A stretch of DNA of 64,000 bases from Rhodococcus spongiicola. GTDB lineage: Bacteria; Actinomycetota; Actinomycetes; Mycobacteriales; Mycobacteriaceae. Location of the stretch: contig NZ_RKLN01000001.1 in NCBI RefSeq assembly GCF_004011835.1, forward strand, positions 372,001 to 436,000, read 5' to 3'. This document shows, piece after piece, positions 21,980 to 53,738 of this stretch. Made by a program: the position numbers and the translations under genes. Each line of letters opens with the position of its first letter. Position 1 is the stretch's first letter. The notes below the pieces were generated by a model that was not told the origin of the DNA, ran no database searches, and saw nothing but the letters and a program-made list of their open reading frames with translations.

Positions 21980-22507
21980 TCAGGAACCGCCGAGGCCGGC
22001 GCAGTGGCTACCGACACTGCCGCCGCTGCCGGCGTCGGCGGTGCTAGCGCTGCCTGTCTCAGTGCTACCGAAGTTGCCGAAGTCCATGCTGCCAAGTATG
22101 TCGAGGCTGCCGGAGCTGCTGCAAGGCGGGGCGATGAACGTGAGCGGATCGGCCGTGCCGGTTTCCGACGTGTTCCCCCACGCCTCGACGCCGGGTACGG
22201 ACTCGCAGTTCCAGATGACGTCATAGCGGCCGTCGGCGACGGTCACTGGCTCGCGGTACACCGCGTCGGGCTGGACGAACACGTTGATGCGCACGTGGGT
22301 TTCGCCGAACAGGCCACTCGATGCCGCCCAGGCGCATTCGATCATCCCGTCGCTGTCGTTGGCGATGATGACTTCAACGTCGTTCCCGACGACATCGACG
22401 GAGAGGGCGACGTCCTCGGGTGCGGCGTTCGCTGGTGCGGCGAACGCGACGGCCAGGACCGGGGCGGCCAAGGCTGCGGTGACGGCGGCACGTACTGACT
22501 TGATCAA
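21980..22507 (-). CDS. Secreted Cys-pair/WGT family protein A1
   Basis: This is a 175-residue exported protein. It starts with TTG (22507), directed by GAAGGGGAAG, as in its paralogues. A signal peptide (IKSVRAAVTAALAAPVLAVAF, cleavage near ANA|APED) is followed by a beta-rich domain with the family features: PEDVALSVDVVGNDVEV, cysteine 1 in IECAWAA, cysteine 2 in YDVIWNCESV, then AWGNTSETGTADP, a variant of the W-G-T motif. The C-terminus is Ser/Gly-rich (SGSLDILGSMDFGNFGS) and has two extra cysteines. The function is unknown; first of a five-gene tandem cluster. Confidence 0.75.
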   Translation of the reverse strand: MIKSVRAAVTAALAAPVLAVAFAAPANAAPEDVALSVDVVGNDVEVIIANDSDGMIECAWAASSGLFGETHVRINVFVQPDAVYREPVTVADGRYDVIWNCESVPGVEAWGNTSETGTADPLTFIAPPCSSSGSLDILGSMDFGNFGSTETGSASTADAGSGGSVGSHCAGLGGS

Positions 22508-22677
22508 AGACTTCCCCTTCGCTCGTTCTCCGGATGTGGACATGCCCCGGTGACATCTCGAAAGAACGCGAGCAATCCCCGAGCGTGAAGGAAGCTAACA
22601 CCGGAGGCCAACGCCTTCAGGGAAGCCACGCCATCGGCGTGGAACGAGAGCCCGCAACAGCTGACGACACATGCTTC

Positions 22678-22706
22678 TGGCCCGACACCGTGGTGGTGCC
22701 GGGCCA
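22678..22706 (-). terminator. Family hairpin repeat after secreted gene A2
   Basis: The same 29-nt hairpin element as at 21940-21968, located just downstream of the A2 stop. Confidence 0.65.
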
Positions 22707-22716
22707 GGAAGGGCCG

Positions 22717-23295
22717 TTAGGAATCGCCGAGGCTGGGGGAAGTGGTGCTGCCCGAGGTGGTGCTGCCCGAGGTGGTGCTGCCCGAGTCGGTGCTGCCGGA
22801 CTCGGAACTGCCGAGGCTGCCAAGACTGCCGGACTCGGAACTGCCGAGGCTGCCGAGGCTGCCGGTGTCGGTGCCCTCGTCGTCGACAGGCACCGGGGTG
22901 GTGACCGGGGTCGGATCTGCCGTGTCGCCGCCGCCTCCTATATCGCCCGTGCCCCATTCCTCGTCAGAGGCAGGGATGGTGGTGCACCACCAACTGATCT
23001 TGTAGTCGCCGTCGGGCAGGTCCGCTGCGGTGCGAGACTCGCCACCCAAAGGCAGGACGAGGGTTCGGACCAGCACCTGGGGCTCGTCATCGACGTCGTC
23101 GCCGGCCCACGCCAGCCATTCGCAGCCGATCAGGCTTGGGTTGTCGTTAGTGATGGTGACCCACACGTCGTTGCCCTGGACGTCGGCGGTGAGGTTGACG
23201 TCCTCGGCAGCCGCGTTCGCTGGTGCGGCGAACGCGACGGCCAGGAGCGGAGCGGCCAAGGCTGCGGTGACGGCGGCACGTACTGACTTGATCAA
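22717..23295 (-). CDS. Secreted Cys-pair/WGT family protein A2 with Ser/Gly repeat tail
   Basis: The 192-residue protein has a TTG start at 23295 with GAAAGGGAAG upstream, a signal peptide ending near ANA|AAED, a core with IGCEWLAWAG (Cys 1) and YKISWWCTTIP (Cys 2), and EEWGTGD. The tail from about residue 145 is low complexity: two GSLGSLGSSES units and then three SGSTT units, ending SLGDS. The tail reads as a flexible wall-spanning or sorting segment. The repeat coding is also DNA-repetitive, so its length may vary among strains. Confidence 0.75.
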   Translation of the reverse strand: MIKSVRAAVTAALAAPLLAVAFAAPANAAAEDVNLTADVQGNDVWVTITNDNPSLIGCEWLAWAGDDVDDEPQVLVRTLVLPLGGESRTAADLPDGDYKISWWCTTIPASDEEWGTGDIGGGGDTADPTPVTTPVPVDDEGTDTGSLGSLGSSESGSLGSLGSSESGSTDSGSTTSGSTTSGSTTSPSLGDS

Positions 23296-23546
23296 AGACT
23301 TCCCTTTCGCTCGTTCTCCGTATGCGGCGTGCGCCGGTGGCATCTCGAAAGAACGCGAGCAATCCCCCCGGGGTGTGAGGGAAGTTAACACCGAACATGG
23401 CCATCTCGAGAGAAGCCACGCCATTGACGCTGTAGGCACCCGAGTATTCGCGCTGATGAAACCGCATCGCCCGCAACAGCTGACGGCACACATGGGGGAA
23501 GCCGAGCTATTTGGCGAACTACCGAACAGCGGCCGAAACATACTTC

Positions 23547-23575
23547 TGGCCCGACACCGTGGTGGTGCCGGGCCA
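23547..23575 (-). terminator. Family hairpin repeat after secreted gene A3
   Basis: Third copy of the 29-nt hairpin element, just after the A3 stop. Confidence 0.65.
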
Positions 23576-23586
23576 GCAAGGCCCGG

Positions 23587-24078
23587 TTAGGAACCGCCGA
23601 GGATGCCGAAGTCGAGGCTGCCAAGGCTGCCGGTGCCGACCTCCCCTGCTACAGCACCGACGGTGAACGTGATCGGTTCGGTCCTGTAAGCGGGGTCAAC
23701 GGAGTCTGGTGTCCCCCACGTCTCCAGATAAGGTGCGGGCCAGGTGGCGGAAGGGCGGCCTTTGCACGTCCAGGTCATCTGGTAGGTGCCATCGTCGAAG
23801 GTCGCCGCCTTGCGGTGCTCCTTGATATCCGGAAGGTATAGAAAAGTAGCGCCGGTGCCGAGTGGATTAGCTCCGGAGTTGCCGTCGTTCGTTATCTCCC
23901 ATGAGCAGTCGAGGTCGTACTTGGAGTTGATGGTGACGATGAGTTCGACGTCGTTGCCCTGGACGTCGACGGTGAAGGTGAGGTCTTCGGGCGCTGCGTT
24001 GACTGGCACGGCGAACATGACGGCCAGGAGCGGGACGGCCAAGGCCGCGGTGACAGCGGCACGTACTGACTTGATCAA
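23587..24078 (-). CDS. Secreted Cys-pair/WGT family protein A3
   Basis: The 163-residue protein starts at TTG 24078 after GAGAAGGGAAC. Signal peptide IKSVRAAVTAALAVPLLAV, cleavage near VNA|APED. The core shows LDCSWEITND (Cys 1), YQMTWTCKGRP (Cys 2) and LETWGTPDSV, then EPITFTVGAV. The tail is short, TGSLGSLDFGILGGS. It belongs to the same family as its neighbours; function unknown. Confidence 0.75.
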   Translation of the reverse strand: MIKSVRAAVTAALAVPLLAVMFAVPVNAAPEDLTFTVDVQGNDVELIVTINSKYDLDCSWEITNDGNSGANPLGTGATFLYLPDIKEHRKAATFDDGTYQMTWTCKGRPSATWPAPYLETWGTPDSVDPAYRTEPITFTVGAVAGEVGTGSLGSLDFGILGGS

Positions 24079-24354
24079 GGAGTTCCCTTCTCTCGTTCTC
24101 CGTATGCGGGCCCGTGTGCGGGTAGTGGTGCACGGGGGTGGTACCTCGAAAGGACGCGAATGTATCTCCGCCCCAACGTGAACGAAGCTAACACCGGAGG
24201 CCGCCCACCTCGAGGGTTTCCACGGAATCGGCGAACGCGAACCCCGAACACCTGACAGCAGGAAGCCGAGCTATCTCTGACGAACAACCCGCCGCTTGTG
24301 CCAGGTGCCGGGCCGACCGGAACCAACACGAAACAGCGTGCCTGAAAACGCTTC

Positions 24355-24383
24355 TGGCCCGACACCGTAATGGTGCCGGGCCA
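24355..24383 (-). terminator. Family hairpin repeat after secreted gene A4
   Basis: Fourth copy of the 29-nt hairpin element (with a GTAATGG centre), just after the A4 stop. Confidence 0.65.
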
Positions 24384-24394
24384 GGAAGGGGCGG

Positions 24395-24940
24395 TTAGGA
24401 ACTGCCGAGGACGCCGCTGCCAGTGTTAAGGACACCGCTGCCAGTGTTGATGGCGGCGAAGACAAGTTTGACCCAGTCGGGAAGGAGGTGCCAGCCGTCG
24501 CCGGTGATGCCGCCGTCGTCCGTGCCGCCGCCGTCGGTACTAGCCGGGGTAGTGAACTGGATCGGTTCGGCCGTTTCGGTGGGAGAGAGATTCCCCGTCC
24601 CCCATTCCCCGACAGGACGGGTGGTGCCGAGGCACGACCAACTGAGCTCGTAGCTGCCATCGTCGAAGGTCGCCGTGCTGCGATACTCGCCACCGCGGTC
24701 GATTAAATGATCTCTGGACACGAACGGACCGGGCGCGGAGGGGTCGTCATTCGCGACCTGCCAGAGGCAGACGATCTCCTGCGAACTGTTGTTGGTGATC
24801 CTGACTTCAACGTCGCTGCCCTGGAACTCGGCGGTGAGAGTGACGTCTTCGGGTGCGGCGTTGGCCGGCGCGGCGAACACGGCGGCCAGGAGCGGAGCGG
24901 CCAAGGCTGCTGCGGCGGTCGCACGTACTGACTTGATCAA
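24395..24940 (-). CDS. Secreted Cys-pair/WGT family protein A4
   Basis: The 181-residue protein starts at TTG 24940. The signal peptide ends near ANA|APED; the core carries IVCLWQVAND (Cys 1), YELSWSCLGT (Cys 2), VGEWGTGNL and AEPIQFTTP. The C-terminal part has a short Gly/Asp linker, an amphipathic stretch (WHLLPDWVKLVFAAINT) and two GSGVL units ending in LGSS. The core is closest to prophage protein B1 (both have TAEFxGxDVEV, DGSYxLxW). Confidence 0.75.
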   Translation of the reverse strand: MIKSVRATAAAALAAPLLAAVFAAPANAAPEDVTLTAEFQGSDVEVRITNNSSQEIVCLWQVANDDPSAPGPFVSRDHLIDRGGEYRSTATFDDGSYELSWSCLGTTRPVGEWGTGNLSPTETAEPIQFTTPASTDGGGTDDGGITGDGWHLLPDWVKLVFAAINTGSGVLNTGSGVLGSS

Positions 24941-25216
24941 GGAATTGCCTTCCCTCGTTCTCCGTATGCGGGCGTGACCGGTGGCATCTCGAAAGAACGT
25001 GAGCAATCCCCCCGGCGTGAGGGGAAATTACACCAAAGAGACGTGAGCATGCATTCGGCGCTATCACTGAGATCACGGCGGGGTCCGCGGCGCATCGCCG
25101 ACAGCATCGACGCCCAAGGGTCCAGCCAGCAACCGAGCGTCGACATCCACCTCCACGTCCACATCACCGACGACGAACCTGCGCCTCGGTGGGGTCGAAG
25201 GACTCCGGGATGAGAG

Positions 25217-25249
25217 AAGGCCCCGTCAGTGTGGCGGGGCCTTCGTCGT
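25217..25249 (-). terminator. Terminator after secreted gene A5
   Basis: GAAGGCCCCG (about 25217-25226) pairs with CGGGGCCTTC (about 25236-25245), followed by GTCGTC on the plus side. It differs in sequence from the shared 29-nt hairpin of the other family members and lies just after the A5 stop. The rest of 24941-25255 holds nothing else. Confidence 0.65.
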
Positions 25250-25255
25250 CTCGGG

Positions 25256-25711
25256 TCAGCTCTCGAAGATCGATTCCAGCAGCTGGCTGACGATCAAGTT
25301 CACGCTGCCGAAGGTTCGATCTTCGAAGGTGATCTCGACGGGCTCGGCCGTGCCCCGGAATGTCCCCCAATACTCGCTGCCATCGGAAGCGTCACAAAGC
25401 CAATCGATGGTGTGTTCGCCGCGTACCTTTGCGGTAACCCTCGCACTATCCGCGCTGCCGGGATCGACTTCCATGCTGACGTCGACGGGCCCCAGGTCTG
25501 CCGAGACGGCGGATATCATCGGGCTTGTGTACGTACGGCAGTCGATCTTCGACTCGCTGTTGTTGGTGATGGTCACGATCATGTCCTTGCCCTCGGTCGT
25601 CGCCGAGAGGGTGACGTCCTCGGGCGCCGCTTGGGCAGGTGCCGCGAACACGGCGGCGAGGAGGGGGGCGGCCAGCAGTGCGGATGCCGCGGTGCGAACA
25701 GACTTCTTCAA
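25256..25711 (-). CDS. Secreted Cys-pair/WGT family protein A5 (divergent member)
   Basis: The 151-residue protein starts at TTG 25711 (codes KKSVRTAASALLAAPLLAAVF) with signal cleavage near AQA|APED. The core has KIDCRTYTS (Cys 1), HTIDWLCDASD (Cys 2), SEYWGTFRGTAEPVEITF, so the W-G-T-x-x-G-T-A-E-P motif is complete. It lacks the Gly-Ser-Leu tail and instead ends in a helix (VNLIVSQLLESIFES). It also has its own type of terminator, so it may be the oldest member of the cluster. Confidence 0.75.
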   Translation of the reverse strand: MKKSVRTAASALLAAPLLAAVFAAPAQAAPEDVTLSATTEGKDMIVTITNNSESKIDCRTYTSPMISAVSADLGPVDVSMEVDPGSADSARVTAKVRGEHTIDWLCDASDGSEYWGTFRGTAEPVEITFEDRTFGSVNLIVSQLLESIFES

Positions 25712-26005
25712 AGGGTCCCTCTTTCGTCCAGTGATGTTTCGCGAGGCTAACTCACCTCGGCACCCTTGGGCGCGAACGACACTCCGGTCGCTCGGTCAGC
25801 CCTGACCTTCGCCAGCTCCTCCGCGAAGTATGGGCTGTCTTTCAAGAGCCGATTCTGTCGAGCCCAGCTCGAGGGCGGTATCCACCTCATCGTCACTGAG
25901 GTCGCCCCGATCCAAACCCACATCGATGAAACCGATCAACTGGACGACAGCATCCTGCTCGATGTGGCATCCCAGCGAATAGTCTCTTGACCTGCGGCGA
26001 TTAAG

Positions 26006-26052
26006 TGCCCCCAGTGGGACTCGAACCCACACTTTGCGGATTTTAAGTCCGC
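26006..26052 (-). other. attL: 3' half of a tRNA (anticodon TAA) at the left prophage end
   Basis: Read on the minus strand, a perfect 5-bp anticodon stem (GCGGA/TCCGC) holds loop CTTAAAA (anticodon TAA, Leu codon UUA), then a 5-nt variable loop, a perfect T arm (GTGGG TTCGAGT CCCAC) and the 3' acceptor strand TGGGGGCA. No D arm or 5' acceptor strand follows at higher coordinates: the sequence changes right after the anticodon stem. This is what an integrase leaves when using the 3' half of a tRNA gene as core site. The intact tRNA should sit at the right end, beyond 64,000. The short variable loop is unusual for a leucine tRNA. Confidence 0.8.
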
Positions 26053-26142
26053 CCCAGTTGCACCCACCCACACCCACACACGCGGCTGAACTGCCTATTC
26101 TTAGATGACAACGAGCCGGTACGACCCCCGACGCGCGCCCAC

Positions 26143-26186
26143 TTGTGACAACTGTGTGACAACTCGACCCGACGGCGCGCTACACT
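26143..26186 (+). promoter_or_regulatory. Candidate promoter/operator at the left prophage arm
   Basis: Two adjacent copies of TGTGACAACT (ending at 26153 and 26164) are followed by TACACT at 26181-26186, a possible -10 box with a rather long 19-bp spacer from GTGACA. It lies upstream of the hairpin leader and the first left-arm gene. Confidence 0.35.
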
Positions 26187-26211
26187 TCGGCACGACAACC
26201 AAACAACGAGA

Positions 26212-26240
26212 CCCCGGCGAGTGCGCTAACACTCCCGGGG
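26212..26240 (+). promoter_or_regulatory. Leader hairpin upstream of the left-arm operon
   Basis: CCCCGG-C-GAGTG (26212-26223) pairs with CACTC-CCGGGG (26230-26240) around loop CGCTAA, with one bulged C. It sits 29 nt before the ATG at 26269. There is no T-run, so it is more likely an mRNA leader or protein-binding element than a terminator. Confidence 0.6.
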
Positions 26241-26268
26241 CGTGGCCGAACTACCTGAGGAGTTCGAC

Positions 26269-26472
26269 ATGCAACAGCATACGTGTATGCGCACGCGCCC
26301 ACAGCCGATGGGGCAGCGTTTCGAGGACGCGATCGCGTACCTCTCTACCCTCTCCCCCAGCGCTGATCCGATCGCCGCCGTCCGTGGCTTGATCCGCCAG
26401 CAGCTCGAGTCGGGCCTGTTCTTCGACGCCCACGAGTGGGAAACCCTTGGCGCCCAGGCGGTGACCCGATGA
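26269..26472 (+). CDS. Small prophage protein of the left arm
   Basis: The 67-residue protein (MQQHTCMRTRPQPMGQRFED...) is predicted helical. The ATG at 26269 has GAGGAG 6 nt upstream, better than the GTG at 26242. Its stop overlaps the next start (ATGA at 26469), so the two are coupled. I do not recognise the family. Confidence 0.65.
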   Translation: MQQHTCMRTRPQPMGQRFEDAIAYLSTLSPSADPIAAVRGLIRQQLESGLFFDAHEWETLGAQAVTR

Positions 26473-27341
26473 GCGTCCGAATGATGACCTGGGTTCTCGA
26501 CGAGGCCCCCGTGAATGACTCCACCCAAACCCTCGTGCTGCTGTGCCTCGCTGACCACGCGAACGACGATGGTCTCTGCTGGCCGTCGATCGCGAAGGTT
26601 GCGGCCCGCGCCCGCTGCAGCGAGTCAACCGCCCGCCGCTCGGTCCGCAAGCTCGAGGAGGCTGGACTCATTATCCGCGAAGGCATTTCGCCCGGGCGTG
26701 CGACGAACCTCTACAGGATCATCCCCCGCCGTGAACCCCGTCAGATTGACCGGGTTGGGGATCACTTCACCGCGAAGACTCCGGGAAATAGCATTTCACC
26801 TGCGGATATGCCGTTCGGTGCACCTGTGGATGCCGAACCCTGTCAGATTGACCGGGTTGGACCTCCAACCCTTGCACCGGTGACCACCAACCCTGGCGTG
26901 GGTGACACCCCAACCCTGGCACCGGTGACACCCGAACCATCAATGAACCATCATGAACCGCCAGCAGCTGCGGGCGGCAGCGCGATCGCCGAAACCACGA
27001 GCCGGATCGGCGAACTCGAAACCGCCGTCCGGGCCGTCGGGCTCGGCGCCCGCTTCGATCGCCTCTCGGCCGATGACCGAACGACCATCGACGGCCTGAT
27101 CGACCTTCACGGCGTCCAGGCCCTCGCCGCTCATGCCCTGACCCAGCACCGCCCGAACGATCCGGCAAGGTTCGCGAACGCTTGGATCGAGGCGTGGAAG
27201 GCGCTGCCCGTTCCGGGATTCCAGGCCGCTGCGGCACCGCGCCCTGCGTGCACCGACTGCGACAACGGCTGGATCGACGCCGACACCCCCTGCCCCGTCT
27301 GCCGGTCCAACCTGGTCGGACGGATCGGAGGCGACCAGTGA
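26469..27341 (+). CDS. Helix-turn-helix replication-type protein
   Basis: The 290-residue protein starts MSVRMMTWVLDEAPVNDSTQ. It has an N-terminal winged HTH of the HTH_36/replication-initiator type (TLVLLCLADHANDDGLCWPSIAKVAARARCSESTARRSVRKLEEAGLI), a Pro/Thr-rich linker with a repeated LAPVT-type unit, and a C-terminal Cys cluster (CTDCDNGWIDADTPCPVC), a zinc ribbon. Such proteins act in phage or plasmid replication in actinobacteria. The ATG at 26469 is favoured by the ATGA overlap. The GTGA overlap at its end couples it to the next gene. Confidence 0.8.
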   Translation: MSVRMMTWVLDEAPVNDSTQTLVLLCLADHANDDGLCWPSIAKVAARARCSESTARRSVRKLEEAGLIIREGISPGRATNLYRIIPRREPRQIDRVGDHFTAKTPGNSISPADMPFGAPVDAEPCQIDRVGPPTLAPVTTNPGVGDTPTLAPVTPEPSMNHHEPPAAAGGSAIAETTSRIGELETAVRAVGLGARFDRLSADDRTTIDGLIDLHGVQALAAHALTQHRPNDPARFANAWIEAWKALPVPGFQAAAAPRPACTDCDNGWIDADTPCPVCRSNLVGRIGGDQ

Positions 27342-28201
27342 CCCGGATCCGTTGGGACGTCGTCGCGATCGTCGGGACGACTTACGCAATCGCCGTTCTT
27401 GCATTCGTGCTCAGCTACTCGAAGCTGACCGACCTCGCCGAGCGGGCCAACTACAGCCCGCTGATGGCTCGCGCGTGGCCGCTGATCGTCGACGGCCTCG
27501 CAGTCGTGGCGACAGTCGGGGTCATGCGGATGCGCCGGCGCGGGTACGCATGGTTCCTGCTCTTCGCCGCCACCACCGTCTCGATCGTCGCGGCCATCGC
27601 GAGCGCCATGCTGCCACCCGGACCGCTACCTCCCGTTGCAGCCGCGGCCGTGTCGGTCGCGGCCGCGCTGTGTCTGCTCGCCGCACCGCACCTCGCGGTG
27701 AAGATCCAGCGGGACGCCGCGCAGTCCCGGGACACGTCGCACCTCGCACCTGCGCAGCGCAAGCAGGTGACCGCGCAGACCGGCCTCGCACCTCACACCT
27801 CGCAGCCCGCGCAGGCTTCGCACCGCGCTCCCGCGAAGCCTGCGCCGAGCACTGAGCACCCCCGGTGCGAAGTGAGCACTGAGCAGTCGAGCAGTGCGCC
27901 GCGCACTGAGCAGGCGGACCGCGCAGCTGCGCAGACCACCCCTGATCTGCACACTTCGCAGTTTGCAGCGCACGCTACAGCGCAGGCCGACCGTGAGGTG
28001 CAACTGCATCTCGTCGGCCGCGACGATGCGCAACCTCGTGTTGCGCAGCCGAAACCGCGCGCCGTGAAGTACACCGATGCGCAGATTGCAGAGACCCTCG
28101 CACTCGTCGCATCCGGTGTTTCGCAGCGCGAAGCTGGGCGTCGGATCGGAGCGTCCGGCAACACAGTTCGCGCGTGGGTCGCGAAGGCCGCAGCGCTGTA
28201 G
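27338..28201 (+). CDS. DUF2637-type membrane protein with C-terminal helix-turn-helix
   Basis: The 287-residue protein has four hydrophobic helices in the first 115 residues (VVAIVGTTYAIAVLAFVLSY; PLIVDGLAVVATVGVM; WFLLFAATTVSIVAAIAS; VSVAAALCLLAAP), the DUF2637 layout. A long Ala/Gln/His-rich linker follows, and a C-terminal HTH (TDAQIAETLALVASGVSQREAGRRIGASGNTVRAW). DUF2637 proteins occur on actinobacterial plasmids, ICEs and prophages, and may act in transfer or replication control. The GTG at 27338 overlaps the previous stop (GTGA). Confidence 0.75.
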   Translation: MTRIRWDVVAIVGTTYAIAVLAFVLSYSKLTDLAERANYSPLMARAWPLIVDGLAVVATVGVMRMRRRGYAWFLLFAATTVSIVAAIASAMLPPGPLPPVAAAAVSVAAALCLLAAPHLAVKIQRDAAQSRDTSHLAPAQRKQVTAQTGLAPHTSQPAQASHRAPAKPAPSTEHPRCEVSTEQSSSAPRTEQADRAAAQTTPDLHTSQFAAHATAQADREVQLHLVGRDDAQPRVAQPKPRAVKYTDAQIAETLALVASGVSQREAGRRIGASGNTVRAWVAKAAAL

Positions 28202-28210
28202 CAGGACGGC

Positions 28211-28294
28211 GCATGCGACACCCCGCGAATGCCCTCGCAGCGAAAGCACGCCCGGTACGTTGAAGCGAGTGGCGTGCTTGCGGGGTGTCGATGC
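28211..28294. promoter_or_regulatory. Nested inverted repeat upstream of the EVE-like/HNH gene
   Basis: Left arm 28211-28226 (GCATGCGACACCCCGC) pairs, with one bulge, with 28280-28294. Inside, AAGCACGCC (28244-28252) pairs with 28271-28279. The whole palindromic region fills the gap between the DUF2637 gene and the nuclease gene and ends 20 nt before its start. It could be a terminator/attenuator or operator. Confidence 0.6.
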
Positions 28295-28314
28295 GACAAG
28301 AAGGGAAGGCTCTA

Positions 28315-29232: not shown

Positions 29233-29304
29233 ACTGGCTGCGTCGCGCGCGGAGTGTCCCTTCAGGGCGTGACCTAGCGATGCCGCGGTTGCGATCATGC
29301 GGTG

Positions 29305-29392
29305 CGGCACTACTTGCGCCGCCAGCGTTCCCCGAAGTCGAGCGGCCCAGTGTGTGGTGGCCGGTACAGGATCACCCCGCAGGTGCGGCGGT
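29305..29392 (-). pseudogene. Truncated copy of the zinc-ribbon gene 3' end
   Basis: Read on the minus strand this encodes ...CGVILYRPPHTGPLDFGERWRRK and a stop, nearly the same as the last 25 residues of the intact gene at 30725-30946. The N-terminal part is missing. Together the two copies bracket the beta-propeller gene as direct DNA repeats. Confidence 0.65.
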
Positions 29393-29551
29393 TCTGCCGA
29401 CTCGGACGGGTGTCCGATTCGTCCCGTATAGTCCTCACCCGCGGGGGACGACGGTTCGTTCTCGACCTTTCGGTGCCCTGCGCGTACTGCGCCCGTAGAG
29501 ATGCCTGTGCCTCATCCGCACTTCCTCATTGGCCGAAGGAGCCTAGTCACG

Positions 29552-30679
29552 ATGTCACACAACACCTTTGTTCCGGCTGGCCGCGGAGGTGACCCGGGCT
29601 CGAGGACTCGCACCAGGCGACGGCGCGAGGCGGGACTCGTCGCTGCCCTGGCGGCCGGGCTGATGCTCGCGGCCGGCCCGGCCGCCCAGGCTGACACTGT
29701 CACCGACACGATCCCGCTCGGAACGACACAGCCGTATGGGGTGGCAATCACTCCGGACGGCAACTGGGCCTACGTCGCCGACAGTGTCGACGGCATCGCG
29801 CCGGTGATCGACACCTCAACGAACACGGTCACCACCTCGATCCAGGTCGGCGGACTGCTGGCCGACGTCGCGTTCACCCCGGACGGCACCCGCGCATACG
29901 TCACCAACGGCGGTAACGGCACGGTTTCGGTGATCGACACCGCCACCAACACCGTCATCGACACCATCGACAGTGTCGACGGTGTCGAGACCACAATCGG
30001 GGTGGCGATCACCCCCGACGGCACCCGCGCCTACGTCACCCACCTAGACTTCTTCGGCGACGAGGGGGAGCAGCACGACGGCAAGGTGTCCGTGATCGAT
30101 ACCGCCACCAACACCGTCACCGACACCATCGACGTCCCCCAATATCCGTACGACGTGGCGATCACCCCGGACGGCACCCGTGCCTACGTCACAGGAACCT
30201 CAGTGTCGGTGATCGACACCACCACCAACACCGTCACCGACACCATCGACGTCGGCGCAACCTTGGTGGCGATCACCCCCGACGGCACCCGCGCCTACGT
30301 CACTAGCGAGGACCCGGTGGTGTCGGTGATCGACACCACCACCAACACCGTCACCGCCACAGTCCCGGTCGGAGATTGGTCACGCGGGGTGGCGATCACT
30401 CCCGACGGCACCCGCGCCTACGTCACCCTCGACGAGGAGGGCTCGGTGTCGGTGATCGACACCACCACCAACACCGTCACCGACACCATCGACGTCGGCA
30501 ACCGCCCGGCATACCTGGCAATCACGCCCGACGGCACCCAGGCATACGTCACGAACAGTCGCGACGGCACCGTGTCGGTGATCGCGATCACCGAACCGTC
30601 CACCGGATCCCTGGGATCGCTCGAGTCCTTGCCCGAGTTCCTGGATTCGCTCGAGTCCTTGCTCGACAGCCTGGGATAG
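29552..30679 (+). CDS. Secreted YVTN-type beta-propeller protein
   Basis: The 375-residue protein has a twin-basic N-terminus (RTRTRRRREAG), a signal peptide (LVAALAAGLMLAAGPAAQA) and about seven 40-residue repeats of the YVTN form (VAITPDGTRAYVT...VSVIDTTTNTVTDTIDVG), the right number for one propeller. It ends TGSLGSLESLPEFLDSLESL, a Gly-Ser-Leu tail also seen in the Cys-pair/WGT proteins. The ATG at 29552 has GGAG 10 nt upstream; an upstream GTG frame lacks a ribosome site. It is likely lysogenic-conversion cargo on the cell surface. The repeats are also near-identical in DNA, so unequal crossing-over is possible. Confidence 0.8.
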   Translation: MSHNTFVPAGRGGDPGSRTRTRRRREAGLVAALAAGLMLAAGPAAQADTVTDTIPLGTTQPYGVAITPDGNWAYVADSVDGIAPVIDTSTNTVTTSIQVGGLLADVAFTPDGTRAYVTNGGNGTVSVIDTATNTVIDTIDSVDGVETTIGVAITPDGTRAYVTHLDFFGDEGEQHDGKVSVIDTATNTVTDTIDVPQYPYDVAITPDGTRAYVTGTSVSVIDTTTNTVTDTIDVGATLVAITPDGTRAYVTSEDPVVSVIDTTTNTVTATVPVGDWSRGVAITPDGTRAYVTLDEEGSVSVIDTTTNTVTDTIDVGNRPAYLAITPDGTQAYVTNSRDGTVSVIAITEPSTGSLGSLESLPEFLDSLESLLDSLG

Positions 30680-30717
30680 CACGACGCAAGCTCCCCCGCC
30701 TCAGCTCGAGGTCGTTG

Positions 30718-30800
30718 TGTCGCACTAGCTTCGCCGCCAGCGTTCCCCGAAGTCGAGCGGTCCAGCGTGAGGTGGCCGATACAGGATCACCCCGCAGGCC
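30718..30800. repeat. Second copy of the direct repeat flanking the beta-propeller gene
   Basis: This 80-bp stretch, including CGCCAGCGTTCCCCGAAGTC, matches 29305-29392 with few differences. It is the 3' end of the intact zinc-ribbon gene. Confidence 0.7.
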
Positions 30801-30946: not shown

Positions 30947-31001
30947 ACGTTCGAGTGTGGTGTTATGGTTGCGCGGTGGCCTGAGGGAAGCGGGCCATGC
31001 G

Positions 31002-31036
31002 AACGCCCCGCCGTAGTTGACTTACGGCGGGGCGTT
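31002..31036. terminator. Hairpin terminator left of the lipoprotein gene
   Basis: AACGCCCCGCCGTA (31002-31015) pairs with TACGGCGGGGCGTT (31023-31036), then GTTG. It lies between the zinc-ribbon gene and the lipoprotein gene. Confidence 0.75.
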
Positions 31037-31457: not shown

Positions 31458-31483
31458 CTGCTGCCCCATCCGCGGCATCCGAT

Positions 31484-46015: not shown

Positions 46016-46018
46016 CGG

Positions 46019-46153
46019 CTACTGCTCCTTGTTCCGGGGTGCCTTGGCCCGCGTCTGCACCTTCTTCTCGCGGGCCCCGGACCGCTTCGCGTCCTCGTCG
46101 GTCATCTGCACGGTGTGCTCGATACCTCCGATATCGAGAACAAACTCACGCAT
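46019..46153 (-). CDS. Small charged protein between capsid and connector
   Basis: The 44-residue protein begins MREFVLDIGGIEHTVQMTDE and is Lys/Arg-rich at its end (GAREKKVQTRAKAP). It starts 11 bp after the capsid stop and ends four bp before the connector start, filling the gap completely. Small genes of this kind are common at this place in actinophages; the role is unknown. Confidence 0.65.
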   Translation of the reverse strand: MREFVLDIGGIEHTVQMTDEDAKRSGAREKKVQTRAKAPRNKEQ

Positions 46154-46163
46154 CGCGGCCCCC

Positions 46164-48205: not shown

Positions 48206-48208
48206 TGG

Positions 48209-49456
48209 TCATTCCTCCCCGGCCGGATCCTCTGTGGTCGGCGCGTTCGGGTTGTCCGCCGTCTGATTCAGATTCGACGTGAGCAGCGCGGCATCACCGC
48301 CGAGGGCGGGCATGTTCTGCTTGGCGCGGGCCTCGTCCGCGGTCATCCAGGGCCGCCCGACAGCGGTCTGGAACGCCGAGGCTTCTTCCTCGAACGAACC
48401 CCGCATCTTCGCCTTGACGTTGAACTCGACGAAGACGCCGCCTTGTACGCGCGGGGCGAGGAAGGTGTTGATGCGGTCCTCGATCATTCGCAGTGTCGGG
48501 CCGAGGGTGTCGGAGTAGAGCATCCGGGAGAACTCTTTGACGTTGCTGTAGTTGGCGTTGTCGAGGAGGCCGACCATGACGGGGTTGACGTGGTACACAC
48601 TGGCCACCGTGGTCAGGGCGAGCTTCGCGGCATCGACGTACTCGTCCTCTTTCGATGAGAAGCCGAGCCGCTTCAACTCCATGCCGTCCTCGAGGAGCGG
48701 GGTGGAACCGGCCTGGTTGCCGCTACCCGAGTACGCGTCGCGGTACTGCTTCATCCATTTCGACTTCGCCTCACTCGACCATTCCGGGGCATCCTTTGGT
48801 CGGTGCACGTAGGCGTCGACCCGGCCTCCGCGCTCCCACTTCTGACGCCGGTACTCGGTGGCCGCGATCTGCTCACGCAGCGTTGCCTTCAACGCCGAGA
48901 TCGGTGACGACCCGATCCGGGTGTCCTCCGGGTTCCAGCCGTGGAAGACGAGCATGTCCGATGCGGGCACGATCACCGTGTCGGTGACGTCCGGTAGTGA
49001 CACCTCGTACGCGGAGATGCCGAACGCGCCGTCGGATTTCGAGCCGGTGATCCATGTCGGCCGGATCGGCCGGATCGTCCAGCCCGCGTCGGACTTCGTG
49101 TCCTGTGTGACCACCCAATAGGCGGTGTCGTACAGGGCTAGGGTCGCGACCAGGTCGTGTACCAGCTCGTAGGTTGTCTGCTGCGGATTCGGGGTGCTCA
49201 CCAGCGACGTGAGCCCACCGGCGCGCACCCGCGTGTGATTGCCGTCGTCCGACTTCTCGAACACGTGCAGCCCCAGCTGGGCGACGTTGCGGGCGAGGAA
49301 GTTCACCACTGTCCGTAGATTCGGCTGGTCTCGCCACAGCTTCTCCGCCGTCTGTCCAGTGAGCCCGTCGAGGTTCACCTCGACCACGGGGGCGGATCCG
49401 GCGGTCTGGCCTGCCGGCGCTTTGGCACCGAACCCGAAGAAGGACGCAAGGCCCAT
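48209..49456 (-). CDS. Portal protein, HK97 family
   Basis: The 415-residue protein starts MGLASFFGFGAKAPAGQTAG; the ATG at 49456 follows AGGAGG. It has the portal patterns RTVVNFLARNVAQLGLHVFE, YDTAYWVV, ALKATLREQIAATEYRRQKWERGGR, and YHVNPVMVGLLDNANYSNVKEFSRMLYSDTLGPTLRMIEDRIN. The dodecameric ring is the DNA entry gate and binds terminase. Confidence 0.92.
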   Translation of the reverse strand: MGLASFFGFGAKAPAGQTAGSAPVVEVNLDGLTGQTAEKLWRDQPNLRTVVNFLARNVAQLGLHVFEKSDDGNHTRVRAGGLTSLVSTPNPQQTTYELVHDLVATLALYDTAYWVVTQDTKSDAGWTIRPIRPTWITGSKSDGAFGISAYEVSLPDVTDTVIVPASDMLVFHGWNPEDTRIGSSPISALKATLREQIAATEYRRQKWERGGRVDAYVHRPKDAPEWSSEAKSKWMKQYRDAYSGSGNQAGSTPLLEDGMELKRLGFSSKEDEYVDAAKLALTTVASVYHVNPVMVGLLDNANYSNVKEFSRMLYSDTLGPTLRMIEDRINTFLAPRVQGGVFVEFNVKAKMRGSFEEEASAFQTAVGRPWMTADEARAKQNMPALGGDAALLTSNLNQTADNPNAPTTEDPAGEE

Positions 49457-49467
49457 CGCATTGCCTC

Positions 49468-50982
49468 CTAGAGCATGACGAAGTCGGTGTTTTCGTAGGC
49501 CGAGATCCGGGGTGTCTCGACGGGTTGTGCGAGCAGCCACGCAGCCTCGGACACCGCGATCAGTGGCGCGATGTCCGACGGGGATCCCTTGCGGTCGAAG
49601 AACCAGGCATCTCCCGCGCTGCGGGCCCGTGCCGCGCGCACCGCCTCATCAAGGAGGGGTTGGCCGCGGTGCCGGATCGTCTGTTGCCGTATGCGGTCGA
49701 AGAACGCTCCCGCGGACTTCGCGAGATCCGCGCCGCCGCACGGCACGACCGTCAACCCGGCCTCGGTCATGTCCGCGCTCAGGCTCGACACCGGAGCGCC
49801 GCGTTCCTGCACGGTGACCCGGCCGTCGAACCAGCTGTCCTCGTTGTCGAGGCGTTCGACCAGCCACGGGATCACCCACGCCGTTCCTGCACGTGACGCG
49901 ACGACCTCGACGTGCAGTAGCCCGTCCGGGCGTTCGGCGACGATCCCGATGTGCGTTCGGGAGCGATCCCACGACACATCGACCGCGACAGCGACCCGCG
50001 TGTCGGGCCCGCGCTCCGATTCCATGTCTTGTAGCGGTGCCCAGTCCTCGAAGTCGATGATCCCGGTCTGGATCTGCTCGACCTCCTGGCACAGATTCTC
50101 GGTACGGAACCCGTTCTCCGTTTTGGTCTCACGGTCCGCCTGCAGCGCAGCCGCGGTGAGGGTATGGCCGAGGGACGGGTTCGCCTGCGCCCGCACACCC
50201 CAGTCGTCGATATCGCAGCCGTCCGGCGCCGACCACTCGAACAACCCGAGGGTCACCTCGTCGGTGCGGGCGGTCTCGATCGCGGTCTTCGCCCTCCCCC
50301 GCAGATCACGCAGCACCACCGAATGCACATCACCCGCGTTCGACGCGCACACCGTCTGCGCGCGCGCCGGCACCAGGGTCGTCGAGGACAGCGCGTTCCA
50401 CGCATCCCACGACTTGTGCTCACGCAACTCGTCCAAGAACAGCAGATCCGCGGTCTTGCCGCGGCCGGCGTCTCGTTCGAGGGTTTCGACGATGTACCGG
50501 CCACCCGACCGCAGCCGCATCGCCTTCGCGCCGTTGACGCGCTTGGGCTTGTGCATCCGCTTCTTCAGCGCGGGCACTCGCTCAGCCTGGGTGACAACCT
50601 CTTCCCACACGTCCTCGGCGTCACCGAGGGACTGGGCCGCACCGATCACCGTCTGCGCTGCGTCAACGAACAGCCGCCACAAGATCAGCGCCTTGATGAT
50701 CGTCGTCTTGCCGTTCTGCCGGCTCACCAGCAGCAGCACCCGCTTGAACCGGAACGTGCCGTCCTCGTTCAACTCGAGCGCATGGAGCAGGAACCACTTC
50801 TGCCACGGCAGCAGCGTCATCCGCAGCACCGTCTCGGCGAACCGGATGCACTCGAAACCCGCGCTCGTCCGCGTCGTCAGCTCCCGCAGCGGCGGAGTGA
50901 ACAGGCGAGGCTCGGTGCAGCCCTTGACATCAGACAGACCGGAGCGTGCGGCGGTCATCGAGGATCGCATCCAACTCGTCAC
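49468..50982 (-). CDS. Terminase large subunit
   Basis: The 504-residue protein has the ATPase motifs Walker A (LLVSRQNGKTTIIKALIL) near residue 85, Walker B (ADLLFLDELREHKSW) and a nuclease domain with VAVAVDVSWDRSRTHIGIV and a late acidic patch (GDAWFFDRKGSPSDIAPLIAVSEAAWLL). It cuts and packages DNA. The start is uncertain: GTG/ATG choices at 50982, 50970 or 50958 all overlap the small subunit gene. Confidence 0.93.
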   Translation of the reverse strand: MTSWMRSSMTAARSGLSDVKGCTEPRLFTPPLRELTTRTSAGFECIRFAETVLRMTLLPWQKWFLLHALELNEDGTFRFKRVLLLVSRQNGKTTIIKALILWRLFVDAAQTVIGAAQSLGDAEDVWEEVVTQAERVPALKKRMHKPKRVNGAKAMRLRSGGRYIVETLERDAGRGKTADLLFLDELREHKSWDAWNALSSTTLVPARAQTVCASNAGDVHSVVLRDLRGRAKTAIETARTDEVTLGLFEWSAPDGCDIDDWGVRAQANPSLGHTLTAAALQADRETKTENGFRTENLCQEVEQIQTGIIDFEDWAPLQDMESERGPDTRVAVAVDVSWDRSRTHIGIVAERPDGLLHVEVVASRAGTAWVIPWLVERLDNEDSWFDGRVTVQERGAPVSSLSADMTEAGLTVVPCGGADLAKSAGAFFDRIRQQTIRHRGQPLLDEAVRAARARSAGDAWFFDRKGSPSDIAPLIAVSEAAWLLAQPVETPRISAYENTDFVML

Positions 50983-51241
50983 CCTCAGCCTCGGCCTGCA
51001 GGTTCAGCTTCGCCGCACCCTCCGGCGTCAACCCCAGCCCGGTCAGCACCTTGTGCAGCGTCGGCACCGGCCCGAACGACGCCTTCGTCGCAGCCTCCGT
51101 CCCGGTATCCACCGCCTCGTCGATCACCCGGGCCAGCATCCGCGCCTGCTCGATCGCGGCCCGATACTGCGGGGCGTCCTGGAGGTGTTCAGCGGCCCGC
51201 ACCGAGGCGTTGACCTCCGAAAGGAGCGTCTTTTTCGCCAT
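50930..51241 (-). CDS. Terminase small subunit
   Basis: The 103-residue protein (MAKKTLLSEVNASVRAAEHLQDAPQYRAAIEQARMLARVIDEAVDTG...) is helical and directly precedes and overlaps the large subunit gene. Its sequence type fits small-subunit proteins of actinophages that recognise the packaging site. The call rests on position and length. Confidence 0.75.
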   Translation of the reverse strand: MAKKTLLSEVNASVRAAEHLQDAPQYRAAIEQARMLARVIDEAVDTGTEAATKASFGPVPTLHKVLTGLGLTPEGAAKLNLQAEAEGDELDAILDDRRTLRSV

Positions 51242-51368
51242 GATCAGACCTCCGATACTGGGTTACCGCGCGCGCGACCCCCCTTCACCTGCAGGAGGGA
51301 GAGAACCAGCGCCGCCAAGGAGTGGTCCGTGATGTGGGGGTCCTGGTGATTGTCAGGCCCCCTGGGGG

Positions 51369-51656
51369 TCACCAGGTTTCGCTGGGTGTGCCGAGGGTGG
51401 CAGTGGGTTCGCCAGCACCTCTGGAGGCATTACATCCGCCGTGGCTTGCCCGGAAGTTGTTGGTGTCGTCGACCAGCTCGGGGTGTGTCTTGACCGGGTG
51501 GTAGTGGTCGAGCTGGAAGGCGTCAGGGTGTTCGCGGGGCAGGGTGTAGTCGATGGGTTGCCCGCACAGGTGGCAGGGCGCGGCCCGTTGGTGGCAGCGG
51601 CTTCGGAAGTCTGCGCGGAGTGTCTTGTGGCGGCGGGTGGATCGTTCGTTCGCCAC
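51369..51656 (-). CDS. Phage HNH endonuclease next to terminase
   Basis: The 95-residue protein has CHLCGQPIDYTLPREHPDAFQLDHYHPVKTHPELVDDTNNFRASHGGCNASRGAG, a full HNH motif with zinc cysteines. The GTG at 51656 is one base after the preceding stop. HNH proteins next to terminase take part in DNA cutting at packaging (cos cleavage) in several phages with this organisation. Confidence 0.88.
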   Translation of the reverse strand: MANERSTRRHKTLRADFRSRCHQRAAPCHLCGQPIDYTLPREHPDAFQLDHYHPVKTHPELVDDTNNFRASHGGCNASRGAGEPTATLGTPSETW

Positions 51657-51657
51657 G

Positions 51658-51846
51658 TCAGCGCCGTCGCCAGGTGCGCGTCTTGCGGCCTGGGCTGTCC
51701 GCGTCTGCCGGCTGGGCGCAGTGGATGTGGACCTCGCCGATGCGGATCGGCTGCGACTCGCTGGCTGCCTGGTTGCCAAGGATGGCGTTGCCGATGCGGA
51801 TGAGGACGTGTCCGGTGATGGATGTGATTGCGTCGATCGGGTTCAC
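51658..51846 (-). CDS. Small protein upstream of the HNH gene
   Basis: The 62-residue protein starts NPIDAITSITGHVLIRIGNAI from GTG 51846, preceded by AAGGAGG at 4 nt spacing. The C-terminus is basic (PGRKTRTWRRR). It is the first gene of the leftward late operon. I do not recognise it. Confidence 0.6.
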   Translation of the reverse strand: MNPIDAITSITGHVLIRIGNAILGNQAASESQPIRIGEVHIHCAQPADADSPGRKTRTWRRR

Positions 51847-52042
51847 TGCGCCTCCTTCGTGGTAAGGCGTTCCGGGTTCGCCTTCGACCCTGAATCCGCT
51901 GAAATCCTCGAGGTGAGCGGCCTCCGGTGTTAACTTCCCTCACGTCAGGGCGGAGACACACTCGCGCCCTTTCGAGTTGACACCCCGGGTGCACCACCAT
52001 CCGCACACGGGTCCGTACACGGAGAACAGAAAAGAGGACTCC

Positions 52043-52537
52043 TTGATCAAGTCACTACGTGCCGCCGCTACCACGGTCCTGGCCGCCCCGCTCCTGGCCA
52101 CTGTGTTTGCCGCACCGGCTAGCGCCGCACCCGAAGACGTCACCCTCACCGCCGAATTCCACGGCAACGACGTCGAAGTCACCTTCACGAACGACAGCTC
52201 GGAAGTGGTTCGATGCCAGTGGGACGTTCGGAACGACGGGGAGGGCTGGGGGCGCGGCTATTCGCTGGTCAACGTCGATCCCGGCGGCGAGCATCGCCCG
52301 ATGGACACGTTCGACGATGGCAGCTACCAGCTCGATTGGTTGTGCTATAACCCGGACTCTGGGGAGCAGTGGGGAACCGAGGGTCGCATACAGACAGCCG
52401 AGTCGATCCTGTTCACCCTCCCCTTTGTCCCTGACGACGACGCCGACGACGGCAGCCTCGGGGACCTCAACCCCGGCATCCTCGTAGGTATCCTCGGAGC
52501 CCTCGGAGCCGGCAGCCTCGCCCTCGGCAGTTCCTAA
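52043..52537 (+). CDS. Secreted Cys-pair/WGT family protein B1 (prophage cargo)
   Basis: The 164-residue protein starts at TTG 52043 (AGAGGA upstream), with a signal peptide IKSLRAAATTVLAAPLLATVF cut near ASA|APED. The core has VRCQWDVRND (Cys 1), YQLDWLCYNPD (Cys 2), EQWGTEGRIQTAESILFTLP. The tail DGSLGDLNPGILVGILGALG and following AGSLALGSS contains a hydrophobic stretch that could insert in a membrane. It is on the plus strand, opposite to the late genes: expressed from the lysogen. Confidence 0.75.
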   Translation: MIKSLRAAATTVLAAPLLATVFAAPASAAPEDVTLTAEFHGNDVEVTFTNDSSEVVRCQWDVRNDGEGWGRGYSLVNVDPGGEHRPMDTFDDGSYQLDWLCYNPDSGEQWGTEGRIQTAESILFTLPFVPDDDADDGSLGDLNPGILVGILGALGAGSLALGSS

Positions 52538-52646
52538 CCGCCCCTTGCTGGCCCGGCACCATCACGGTGTCGGGCCAGGAAGGCGTTCGCAGTCAATCAC
52601 TCCACACGGAGAACAGAAAAGAGGACTCCTTGATCAAGTCAGTACG
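52511..52646 (+). repeat. 136-bp perfect direct repeat, copy 1
   Basis: This stretch runs from the last codons of B1 through the hairpin and ribosome site into the first codons of B2. It is identical to 53128-53263. It shows that B2 and B3 arose by recent tandem duplication or were homogenised. Confidence 0.9.
52549..52577 (+). terminator. Family hairpin repeat after B1
   Basis: The 29-nt hairpin (arms TGGCCCGGCACC / GGTGTCGGGCCA) is the same element as after A1 to A4, with a CATCA centre. Confidence 0.65.
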
Positions 52647-53154
52647 AGCCGCAGCCGCAGCTGCGTTGGCCGCTCCGCTCCTCGCCACGGTGTTCGCCGC
52701 GCCGGCTAGCGCCGCACCCGAAGACGTCACACTCACCGCCGAGGTCCAGGGCAACGACGTCGCATTCACCCTCACCAACAACAGCGACAGCCCGCACGTT
52801 GTGCTCTGTTCCGTGTATATCGCGCCCGCCGCCACCCCCTCGAACGCTGTATTCGGCGAGATCCGCTCGCCCTCGGCCGGTAGCGAGGAGCGCTTTACCG
52901 CGACCGTCGACGATGGCAGCTACCAAATCGAGTGGTACTGTCGGGAACTTACAGGTGATCCCAACGATCCCGAAGAAAGCTGGGGGACAGGGAATGAGGG
53001 AAAGTACACAAAAACGGCCGACCTGATCTTCTTCACCGCCCCGGTTATCCCTGACGACGACAGCGCCGGCAGCCTCGGGGACCTCGACCCCGGAGTCCTC
53101 GTAGGTGTCCTCGGAGCCCTCGCCGCGGGCAGCCTCGCCCTCGGCAGTTCCTAA
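52630..53154 (+). CDS. Secreted Cys-pair/WGT family protein B2 (prophage cargo)
   Basis: The 174-residue protein starts at TTG 52630. Signal peptide IKSVRAAAAAALAAPLLATVF, cut near ASA|APED. Core: VVLCSVYIAP (Cys 1), YQIEWYCREL (Cys 2), EESWGTGNEGKYTKTADLIFFTAP. The tail GSLGDLDPGVLVGVLGALAA, then GSLALGSS, is nearly the same as in B1 and B3. The cores differ far more than signal and tail, suggesting that the core diversifies between conserved ends. Confidence 0.75.
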   Translation: MIKSVRAAAAAALAAPLLATVFAAPASAAPEDVTLTAEVQGNDVAFTLTNNSDSPHVVLCSVYIAPAATPSNAVFGEIRSPSAGSEERFTATVDDGSYQIEWYCRELTGDPNDPEESWGTGNEGKYTKTADLIFFTAPVIPDDDSAGSLGDLDPGVLVGVLGALAAGSLALGSS

Positions 53155-53263
53155 CCGCCCCTTGCTGGCCCGGCACCATCACGGTGTCGGGCCAGGAAGG
53201 CGTTCGCAGTCAATCACTCCACACGGAGAACAGAAAAGAGGACTCCTTGATCAAGTCAGTACG
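53128..53263 (+). repeat. 136-bp perfect direct repeat, copy 2
   Basis: Identical to 52511-52646; spans the B2 3' end to the B3 start. Confidence 0.9.
53166..53194 (+). terminator. Family hairpin repeat after B2
   Basis: Same 29-nt hairpin as after B1. Confidence 0.65.
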
Positions 53264-53738
53264 TTCCGCCGTTACCGCAGCGTTGGCCGCTCCGCTTCTG
53301 GCCGTCGCGTTCGCCGCGCCAGCTAGCGCCGCACCCGAAGACGTCACCGTCTCCGCTGAGGTTCAGGGCAACGACGTCCAAGTCACCTTCACCAACAACA
53401 CCGAGCAACCGGTCTTCTGTAACTTGGGGATCGCGGACGCCGCCGACCGCTGGGACCGTGTATACGACGAGTATTTCGTCTTCTTTCCCGACGATGATCC
53501 CTTTACCGTGACCGTCGACGACGGCAGCTACCAGATCGACTGGTTCTGTGATGAAATTCAGGGGTCCGAGAGCTGGGGGACAAGCCGCGGAACCGCCGAG
53601 CCGATCTTCTTCACCCTCCCCTTTGTCCCTGACGACGGCGACACCGACGACGGCAGCCTCGGGAACCTCGACCCCGGCGCGCTCGTAGGTGTCCTCGGAG
53701 CCCTCGCCGCCGGCAGCCTCGTCCTCGGCAGTTCCTAA
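53247..53738 (+). CDS. Secreted Cys-pair/WGT family protein B3 (prophage cargo)
   Basis: The 163-residue protein starts at TTG 53247. Its signal peptide (IKSVRSAVTAALAAPLLAVAF) is closer to those of host proteins A1 and A2 than to B1. Core: PVFCNLGIAD (Cys 1), YQIDWFCDEIQ (Cys 2), ESWGTSRGTAEPIFFTLP. Tail GSLGNLDPGALVGVLGALAA and GSLVLGSS. The mosaic similarity suggests recombination with chromosomal members. Confidence 0.75.
   Translation: MIKSVRSAVTAALAAPLLAVAFAAPASAAPEDVTVSAEVQGNDVQVTFTNNTEQPVFCNLGIADAADRWDRVYDEYFVFFPDDDPFTVTVDDGSYQIDWFCDEIQGSESWGTSRGTAEPIFFTLPFVPDDGDTDDGSLGNLDPGALVGVLGALAAGSLVLGSS

Follow-up and report, generated by a model that had tools for sequence, protein, structure and literature searches.

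Small exported proteins of a multi-copy family beside and inside a prophage of Rhodococcus spongiicola

The Vap proteins of Rhodococcus (Prescottella) equi are small and secreted, exist in multiple copies and are encoded on mobile DNA. In a 64,000-nucleotide stretch of the Rhodococcus spongiicola genome (contig NZ_RKLN01000001.1, positions 372,001 to 436,000 of the forward strand; this whole stretch is called the window hereafter), eight genes encode small proteins of one family, whose members have signal-peptide-like starts. Five of the genes, A1 to A5, lie beside a prophage, and three, B1 to B3, lie within it. The family resembles the Vap proteins at a distance, as multi-copy small secreted Rhodococcus proteins on mobile DNA; no match to the Vap model that Pfam is said to hold was found among the families listed at E values up to 5. 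B1 to B3 also resemble prophage morons, since they are exported cargo of a temperate phage on the strand opposite to their neighbours, an HNH gene before them and a gene call after them. However, most copies of this cargo family lie elsewhere in the chromosome. ANKp, an ankyrin protein, is a further comparison. A role of this phage protein of sponge symbionts toward phagocytes has been reported (PMC8245591, accessible text). In Mycobacterium phage Butters, prophage genes of a mycolic-acid bacterium likewise alter phage sensitivity, with gp30 and exclusion in the prophage defence (PMC7542560, accessible text); the words "secreted", "surface" and "signal peptide" are absent from that text.

The preliminary description of this DNA knew of no described family with these features, and the searches of Pfam, NCBIfam and PHROGs agreed with it. 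None of the eight reached the Pfam or NCBIfam cut-off, no PHROG was matched below E 0.03, and profile searches assigned none of them to a characterised family. Ten distant relatives gave sub-threshold matches to Pfam and NCBIfam, except for one CopC (PF04234) match. For the A cluster, Rfam returned just two hits under the gathering score, the fragment of the tRNA and a microRNA match due to chance. With regard to integron gene cassettes, the two integrases scanned were of the phage type. No single family was prominent in the VIA list, and absence from this list is no evidence. No publication on the family turned up in the literature search, which is not proof of absence.

The copper ligands of CopC are histidines, including an N-terminal one. 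None of the eight proteins passed the PF04234 gathering score; A5 gave a weak profile match (E 0.2, 13.1 bits against a cut-off of 23.3), as did the locus L072 (E 0.098). The B3 core contains no histidine and therefore lacks such ligands, and, with the cleavage site judged by eye, the mature forms of all eight should begin with A-P/A-E-D. In the genome G117, a two-domain member (L120:3453-4340) has a second domain that passes PF04234 (27.2 bits against 23.3), hinting from sequence at a distant tie between the family and CopC.

The eight genes and the prophage borders

The genes are listed below in window positions, as are all coordinates without a contig (C) or locus (L) label. Gene starts were set at a common TTG codon, giving proteins of 151-192 residues.

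A1: 21980-22507, minus strand, 175 amino acids, additional Cys pair in the tail
A2: 22717-23295, minus strand, 192 amino acids, long Gly-Ser tail
A3: 23587-24078, minus strand, 163 amino acids
A4: 24395-24940, minus strand, 181 amino acids, tail type as in two R. xishaensis members on C16
A5: 25256-25711, minus strand, 151 amino acids, start 292 bp outside the prophage
B1: 52043-52537, plus strand, 164 amino acids, within the prophage
B2: 52630-53154, plus strand, 174 amino acids, within the prophage
B3: 53247-53738, plus strand, 163 amino acids, within the prophage, fold modelled

The genes stand at the positions given in the preliminary description, their TTG starts hold, and they are homologous. 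As one family, the eight proteins align over their length, and 26 columns are invariant, among them those of the first Cys, W-x-C and W-G; the Cys pair, W-x-C and W-G are also invariant across the 15 aligned copies of the genome. We infer a disulphide between the paired cysteines. The common features claimed earlier apply to most members, with exceptions. The IKSVRAA start of the signal peptide reads KKSVRTA in A5 and IKSLRAA in B1, and the APEDVTL mature start is present in A4, A5, B1 and B2, the other four having AAEDVNL, APEDLTF, APEDVAL and APEDVTV. The Tyr of the Y-x-x-x-W-x-C context is His in A5, W-G-T is WGN in A1, and the Gly-Ser-Leu tail, present in most members, is missing from A5. 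The claim that cores vary and ends are conserved holds clearly at the protein level for A1-A4 and B1-B3, where the proportion of nonsynonymous differences (pN) was 0.08-0.11 in the signal peptide and 0.35-0.42 in the core. The contrast was smaller at synonymous sites (pS), with 0.24-0.37 in the signal peptide and 0.41-0.47 in the core. For A5 against the other members, signal-peptide pN was 0.18 and pS 0.59.

The prophage is bordered by the following features.

26004-26052, minus strand: left attachment repeat, 3' part of tRNA-Leu(TAA)
66465-66513 (C1:438465-438513), beyond the window: right attachment repeat, 100% identical to the left repeat over 49 bp
26053-64000, continuing to about 66513: prophage, with genes for replication proteins, tail, tape measure, head, portal, terminase, RecT and antirepressor

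An intact tRNA-Leu(TAA) gene contains the right repeat as its 3' part and has a phage integrase next to it. Because of this identical 49-bp repeat at an intact tRNA-Leu gene with its integrase, the prophage is taken to span about 40.5 kb (26004-66513). B1-B3 thus lie between the attachment (att) repeats of a temperate phage, and A5 lies outside by the 292 bp given above. This location agrees with the proposal of lysogenic conversion made earlier; an effect on the phenotype of the lysogen is what we infer from it.

At the same site in R. xishaensis, where DNA identity to the window is 88-93%, the alignment runs to window position 21702 and resumes at the tRNA-Leu side, with no prophage and no family match. 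The gap between the aligned parts is about 0.6 kb and holds a small HicB-like gene (by eye); this gene lies at L158:5603-6354, together with sequence that aligns to the integrase gene at its 3' end. Judged from sequence, the R. xishaensis site looks like the scar of an earlier integration. Since R. xishaensis has no A cluster there, A1-A5 also belong to the variable region at tRNA-Leu, a point absent from the preliminary description; a loss in R. xishaensis would be as possible as a gain in R. spongiicola.

Spread, predicted fold and variable region

A profile search found 16 full-length copies in the 3.97-Mb genome, namely the eight of the window and eight more, so that the family size given in the preliminary description was an underestimate. 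Their profile E-values of 2e-72 to 3e-26 (8 of the 16 had built the profile) indicate that the family is not due to chance. Five further matches at E up to 1 cover only part of the protein, the tail or the signal peptide, and bring the genome total to 21. Two copies encode an identical protein (C24:194998-195534 and C24:196185-196721), and 13 of the 16 full-length copies lie outside the prophage of the window. Within the genus, 6 of 14 genomes, R. spongiicola included, match at E up to 0.001, R. xishaensis with 13 matches. In the wider bacterial family, matches were found in 91 of 401 genomes and in 16 of 31 genera; the profile used includes the signal peptide, on which some weak matches may rest. 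Most matching genomes had 1-3 matches, and R. spongiicola, R. xishaensis, R. marinonascens and G117 had at least 9, with nine candidates scored per genome and copy numbers above nine being lower bounds. By these matches, the family is genome-wide and present in other genera, neither of which appeared in the preliminary description.

Three protein scans of viral contigs yielded members in two of them only, that of the window's own prophage and one of R. marinonascens, and a tblastn search with B2 gave no match in phage records. Plasmid records gave three weak matches, all in P. equi; on the Prescottella equi plasmid pVAPN1572, a weak relative (E 0.3, L061:3920-4387) ends in FGS, as do 7 of 18 distant relatives (by eye). 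In three proteins of the R. spongiicola genome (L031 and L032 at C24:193-195 kb, L018 at C12:146 kb), the family signal peptide leads into repeats rich in Gly-Ser-Leu-Asp or into short tails, with no sandwich domain, and two of the three adjoin the identical pair at C24:194-196 kb.

The AlphaFold model of B3, computed from an alignment that contains all eight proteins, is a sandwich of the fibronectin type III (FN3) or immunoglobulin (Ig) type, with a predicted local distance difference test score of about 87 in the core. Foldseek with this model placed FN3-type domains and other sandwiches in its top rows; template modelling scores normalised by query length were at most 0.48 in the best 50 rows, and many sandwiches scored similarly. 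Among these similar scores, the Bacillus intracellular proteinase inhibitor (3isy) ranked seventh, with E 3.5e-3. The likeness to FN3/Ig-like domains (fibronectin type III, cytokine-receptor, GH2 and transglutaminase) lies in the predicted fold. In contrast, no FN3 or Ig model of Pfam was among the matches listed for the eight at E up to 5; the family profile matched designed Ig domains at E 3e-5. With regard to a fold common to all eight, the models cover two of them: B3 is well modelled, and the single-sequence model of A5, made with no alignment, has a low confidence of 46.5 and the same strand order as B3.

The variation is unevenly distributed over the sandwich. Entropy was 2.76 bits in strand C' and 2.47 bits in strand E, the most variable, compared with 1.14 and 1.10 bits in strands A and B, the least variable. 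Of 10 pairs, 7 had an excess of amino-acid changes in C-C'-E over A-B (p from 1.3e-3 to 6.1e-9). The ten pairs of this test and the ten used for the ratio of nonsynonymous to synonymous rates (dN/dS) were chosen by us, have eight pairs in common and are not independent.

Probable exchange among copies and links to tRNA genes

In the tree of the copies, which was built without a core-less copy and with a single member of the identical C24 pair, A1-A5 form five separate lineages, and the A label needs five changes on five rows. The nearest relative of A1 is the copy at C12:665 kb (60% core identity) and that of A2 is the 3710-kb copy of G117 (68% core identity). A5 groups with copies of R. marinonascens and G117, and A3 and A4 have no clear placement. 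Nevertheless, A1-A4 have leader, signal-peptide sequence and hairpin in common. The tails of B1-B3 are nearly uniform, with pS of 0.06-0.10 against 0.28-0.51 in the core; tail pS and core pS were 0.10 and 0.50 for B1-B2 (p 1.4e-4), and 0.06 and 0.51 for B1-B3 (p 2.9e-5). The flanking features are as follows.

51861-52042, plus strand: 5' leader of B1, common to A1-A4 and dispersed copies
24079-24260, minus strand: 5' leader of A3, from the leader alignment
21939-21969, minus strand: hairpin after A1
22677-22707, minus strand: hairpin after A2
23546-23576, minus strand: hairpin after A3
24354-24384, minus strand: hairpin after A4
25216-25244, minus strand: hairpin after A5, of a different type
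52548-52578, plus strand: hairpin after B1, 31 bases identical to those after B2 and B3
53165-53195, plus strand: hairpin after B2
53749-53779, plus strand: hairpin after B3

B1 is a mosaic, which has the long leader of the A3 type, absent in B2 and B3, together with a tail of the B2/B3 type; identity between 51866-52189 (B1) and 24253-23933 (A3) is 80.6% over 325 bp. In R. xishaensis, a short in-frame member (L062:3758-4021) has strand B joined straight to a tail of the A4 type, the core being missing. Because of the scattered A lineages, the B tails, the B1 mosaic and the core-less copy, exchange through the common ends is favoured over simple tandem duplication. For the B tails, gene conversion or recent growth of the array could also account.

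The conserved leader, with the core CTCGCGTTCTTTCGAG followed by a CATACGGAGAAC stretch, stands before 11 of 16 aligned genes, including A1-A4, B1 and six dispersed copies; it is not found before A5, B2 and B3, nor in full before the C24 pair. It is probably a shared promoter or regulator site. A sigma-70 scan of 51300-54300 gave no promoter-like site. The hairpins 3' of the genes fold strongly; in the same interval, two terminator-like sites were found, compared with 1.6 in shuffles, and no T run stands behind the hairpins.

At the tail end, 22 of 34 collected members fit a strict pattern in which a hydrophobic residue and one or two small ones precede a final Ser. In B1-B3, the tail is hydrophobic over part of its length (best mean over 19 residues 1.77-1.85). 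That the tail serves in sorting or anchoring would be our guess. The Gly-Ser-Leu tail was rejected as a tag of this family alone, since GSLGS-coding sites are also found in other exported-looking proteins: 31 such sites were counted against 6 for the reversed pattern, and one of these proteins is M23-peptidase-like by eye.

A second prophage carries a member. Homologues of the left end of the window's prophage surround the A5 homologue of R. marinonascens (C13:97486-97938; 78% identity in the core, 86.6% at the DNA level over 524 bp), which lies in a stretch of about 49 kb between 55-bp repeats of the tRNA-Arg(ACG) 3' end (93% identity; C13:95134-95188 and 144243-144297). The contig is listed as viral in IMG/VR with 42.8 kb, compared with 49 kb between the repeats. 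The preliminary description placed the A cluster beside the prophage, which is its position in the window; it did not note that the nearest relatives of A5 are in other species, one of them inside a prophage. The A5 orthologue of G117 has no tRNA in the 7-kb stretch examined, and no prophage search was made beyond this.

The R. marinonascens gene lies between homologues of window positions 28.2 kb and 31.1 kb, where the phage of the window carries a second cargo gene.

29501-30679, plus strand: YVTN-type beta-propeller, signal-peptide-like start, GSLGSLESL tail (start and YVTN type assigned by eye)

The propeller gene is flanked by 82-bp direct repeats (89%; 29302-29383 and 30717-30798), an arrangement that looks as if it had been gained as one unit. 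The genome has 62 propeller matches, 22 of them near full length, with arrays at C24:149-156 kb, C24:324-343 kb and C23:319-329 kb. Propellers are also found less than 1 kb away from family members, at C1:335 kb and C12:527 kb.

Members also stand beside tRNA genes. On C16 of R. xishaensis, repeats (491908-491944 and 526069-526105) enclose a 34-kb stretch with an integrase at its right end, and a cluster of three members begins about 0.6 kb outside this stretch. The left repeat is the 3' end of an intact tRNA-Arg(CCT), and the geometry is as in the window. Among 15 loci of three genomes (5 each, counted apart from the two clusters of the window and the R. marinonascens loci), 4 are no more than 600 bp away from an intact tRNA gene, on its 3' side. 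The p value for this proximity was 4e-6, assuming about 50 tRNA genes per 4 Mb and with the 600-bp limit set after the distances had been seen; two of the four loci, C12:527 kb and R. xishaensis C1:501 kb, are orthologous to each other. In all seven loci with a tRNA gene in the fetched stretch, the 3' end of the nearest one faces the members.

Explanations for the family

The explanation that we favour, and to which we give about half of our credence, is that the members are exported FN3-like modules, probably held at the envelope, which bind targets outside the cell, recombine through their shared ends and are moved by phages. Each member, retained at or near the cell surface, would consist of a small disulphide-bonded FN3/Ig-like domain and a C-terminal tail that is disordered or hydrophobic, and a different C-C'-E region on a constant scaffold would make the family a repertoire of surface or secreted binding modules. 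The leader and signal-peptide region before the core, and the tail and hairpin after it, would serve as homology arms, by which cores and whole genes may be exchanged between chromosomal copies and prophages. Since clusters often lie directly 3' of tRNA genes, which are phage integration sites, aberrant excision or recombination would move members into phages. Lysogeny would then supply a new host with new members, a lysogenic conversion of the surface, and the most likely use of the binding would be altered attachment to the cell by phages, other microbes or a marine animal host. We speculate further, as a possibility that we rate as doubtful, that bacterium and phage share a pool of exchangeable modules, with the flanks as homology arms and tRNA att sites as docks, so that each integration or excision deals new cores on the FN3-like scaffold and rewrites the surface specificity of the lysogen. 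Such a pool would be a natural counterpart of engineered FN3 binder libraries.

Several results weigh against the explanation that we favour. The difference between core and tail had a p value of 0.086 for B2-B3, the synonymous divergence of the signal-peptide region is not far under that of the core, and A5 has neither the leader nor the hairpin of the other members, all three points concerning the homology arms. No known anchor motif was recognised in the tails. In the test for a dN/dS above 1 in C-C'-E, one of the ten pairs reached p 0.012 (uncorrected), which does not show positive selection. Moreover, core dN/dS was 0.28-0.57 in three R. xishaensis orthologue pairs and 0.40 for A2 against G117, and the three R. 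xishaensis pairs had no C-C'-E excess (p 0.11-0.50). Because of these low orthologue ratios and the lack of excess there, the divergence may stem from relaxed constraint, after which separate functions became stable. Members were found in only two prophages, and 8 of the 15 loci, including the A5 copy of G117, have no tRNA gene in the stretch examined. Furthermore, B1-B3 lie 13-26 kb from the ends of the prophage, and simple aberrant excision therefore fails to place them.

The same evidence bears on other explanations. As a receptor mask or means of superinfection exclusion, the prophage copies on the lysogen envelope would block other phages, and the chromosomal copies would be remnants of earlier lysogens, retained because they serve the same purpose. 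The presence of copies in two prophages and beside att sites fits this, as does variation concentrated in one part of the sandwich, which an adsorption arms race could leave. We consider it unlikely, given the 13 genome copies outside this prophage, the purifying selection on some orthologues, and the lack of such a PHROG family and of a phage record matching B2; to our knowledge, no phage receptor is known here. An interaction with the animal host, in which prophage-borne secreted proteins aid adhesion or phagocyte escape of sponge-associated Rhodococcus, as in the ANKp precedent (PMC8245591, accessible text), would agree with the 22 near-full-length propeller matches in the genome. It would also agree with the joint description of R. 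xishaensis, the nearest named species, and R. spongiicola from marine sponges (a reference title in PMC11893733). Nevertheless, the family extends over 16 genera, beyond animal associates, and we hold this role to be improbable too.

If the family were a lineage-specific expansion under relaxed constraint, duplicates of minor function would drift and be passively carried by islands and phages. Core dN/dS near 1 in several pairs, no formal positive selection, fragments at C27:144 kb and C1:343 kb and the core-less R. xishaensis copy all point this way. However, the invariant Cys pair, W-x-C and W-G in 15 aligned copies and the low core dN/dS of the three orthologue pairs argue otherwise, and it seems to us quite unlikely. 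Many inhibitors are small secreted disulphide proteins. The seventh-ranked Foldseek match would fit Ig-fold inhibitors of proteases or other exoenzymes like the Bacillus intracellular proteinase inhibitor (BsuPI type), with the variable loops of the family setting the target; we give little credence to this. A secreted toxin or immunity set acting between strains is still harder to believe. Small size, export by signal peptide, many variants and mobility are what such a set would have, but no toxin family was matched in Pfam, NCBIfam or PHROGs, and no obvious partner gene accompanies each copy, the window copies being single genes with a hairpin each.

A family with no Pfam or NCBIfam assignment among the scanned members, with one exception, thus gains a predicted fold and candidate roles. 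If its members are surface binders, as in the explanation that we favour, they would offer a tractable case of lysogenic conversion of the mycolic-acid bacterial envelope, in which one protein family is common to chromosomal tRNA sites and prophages.

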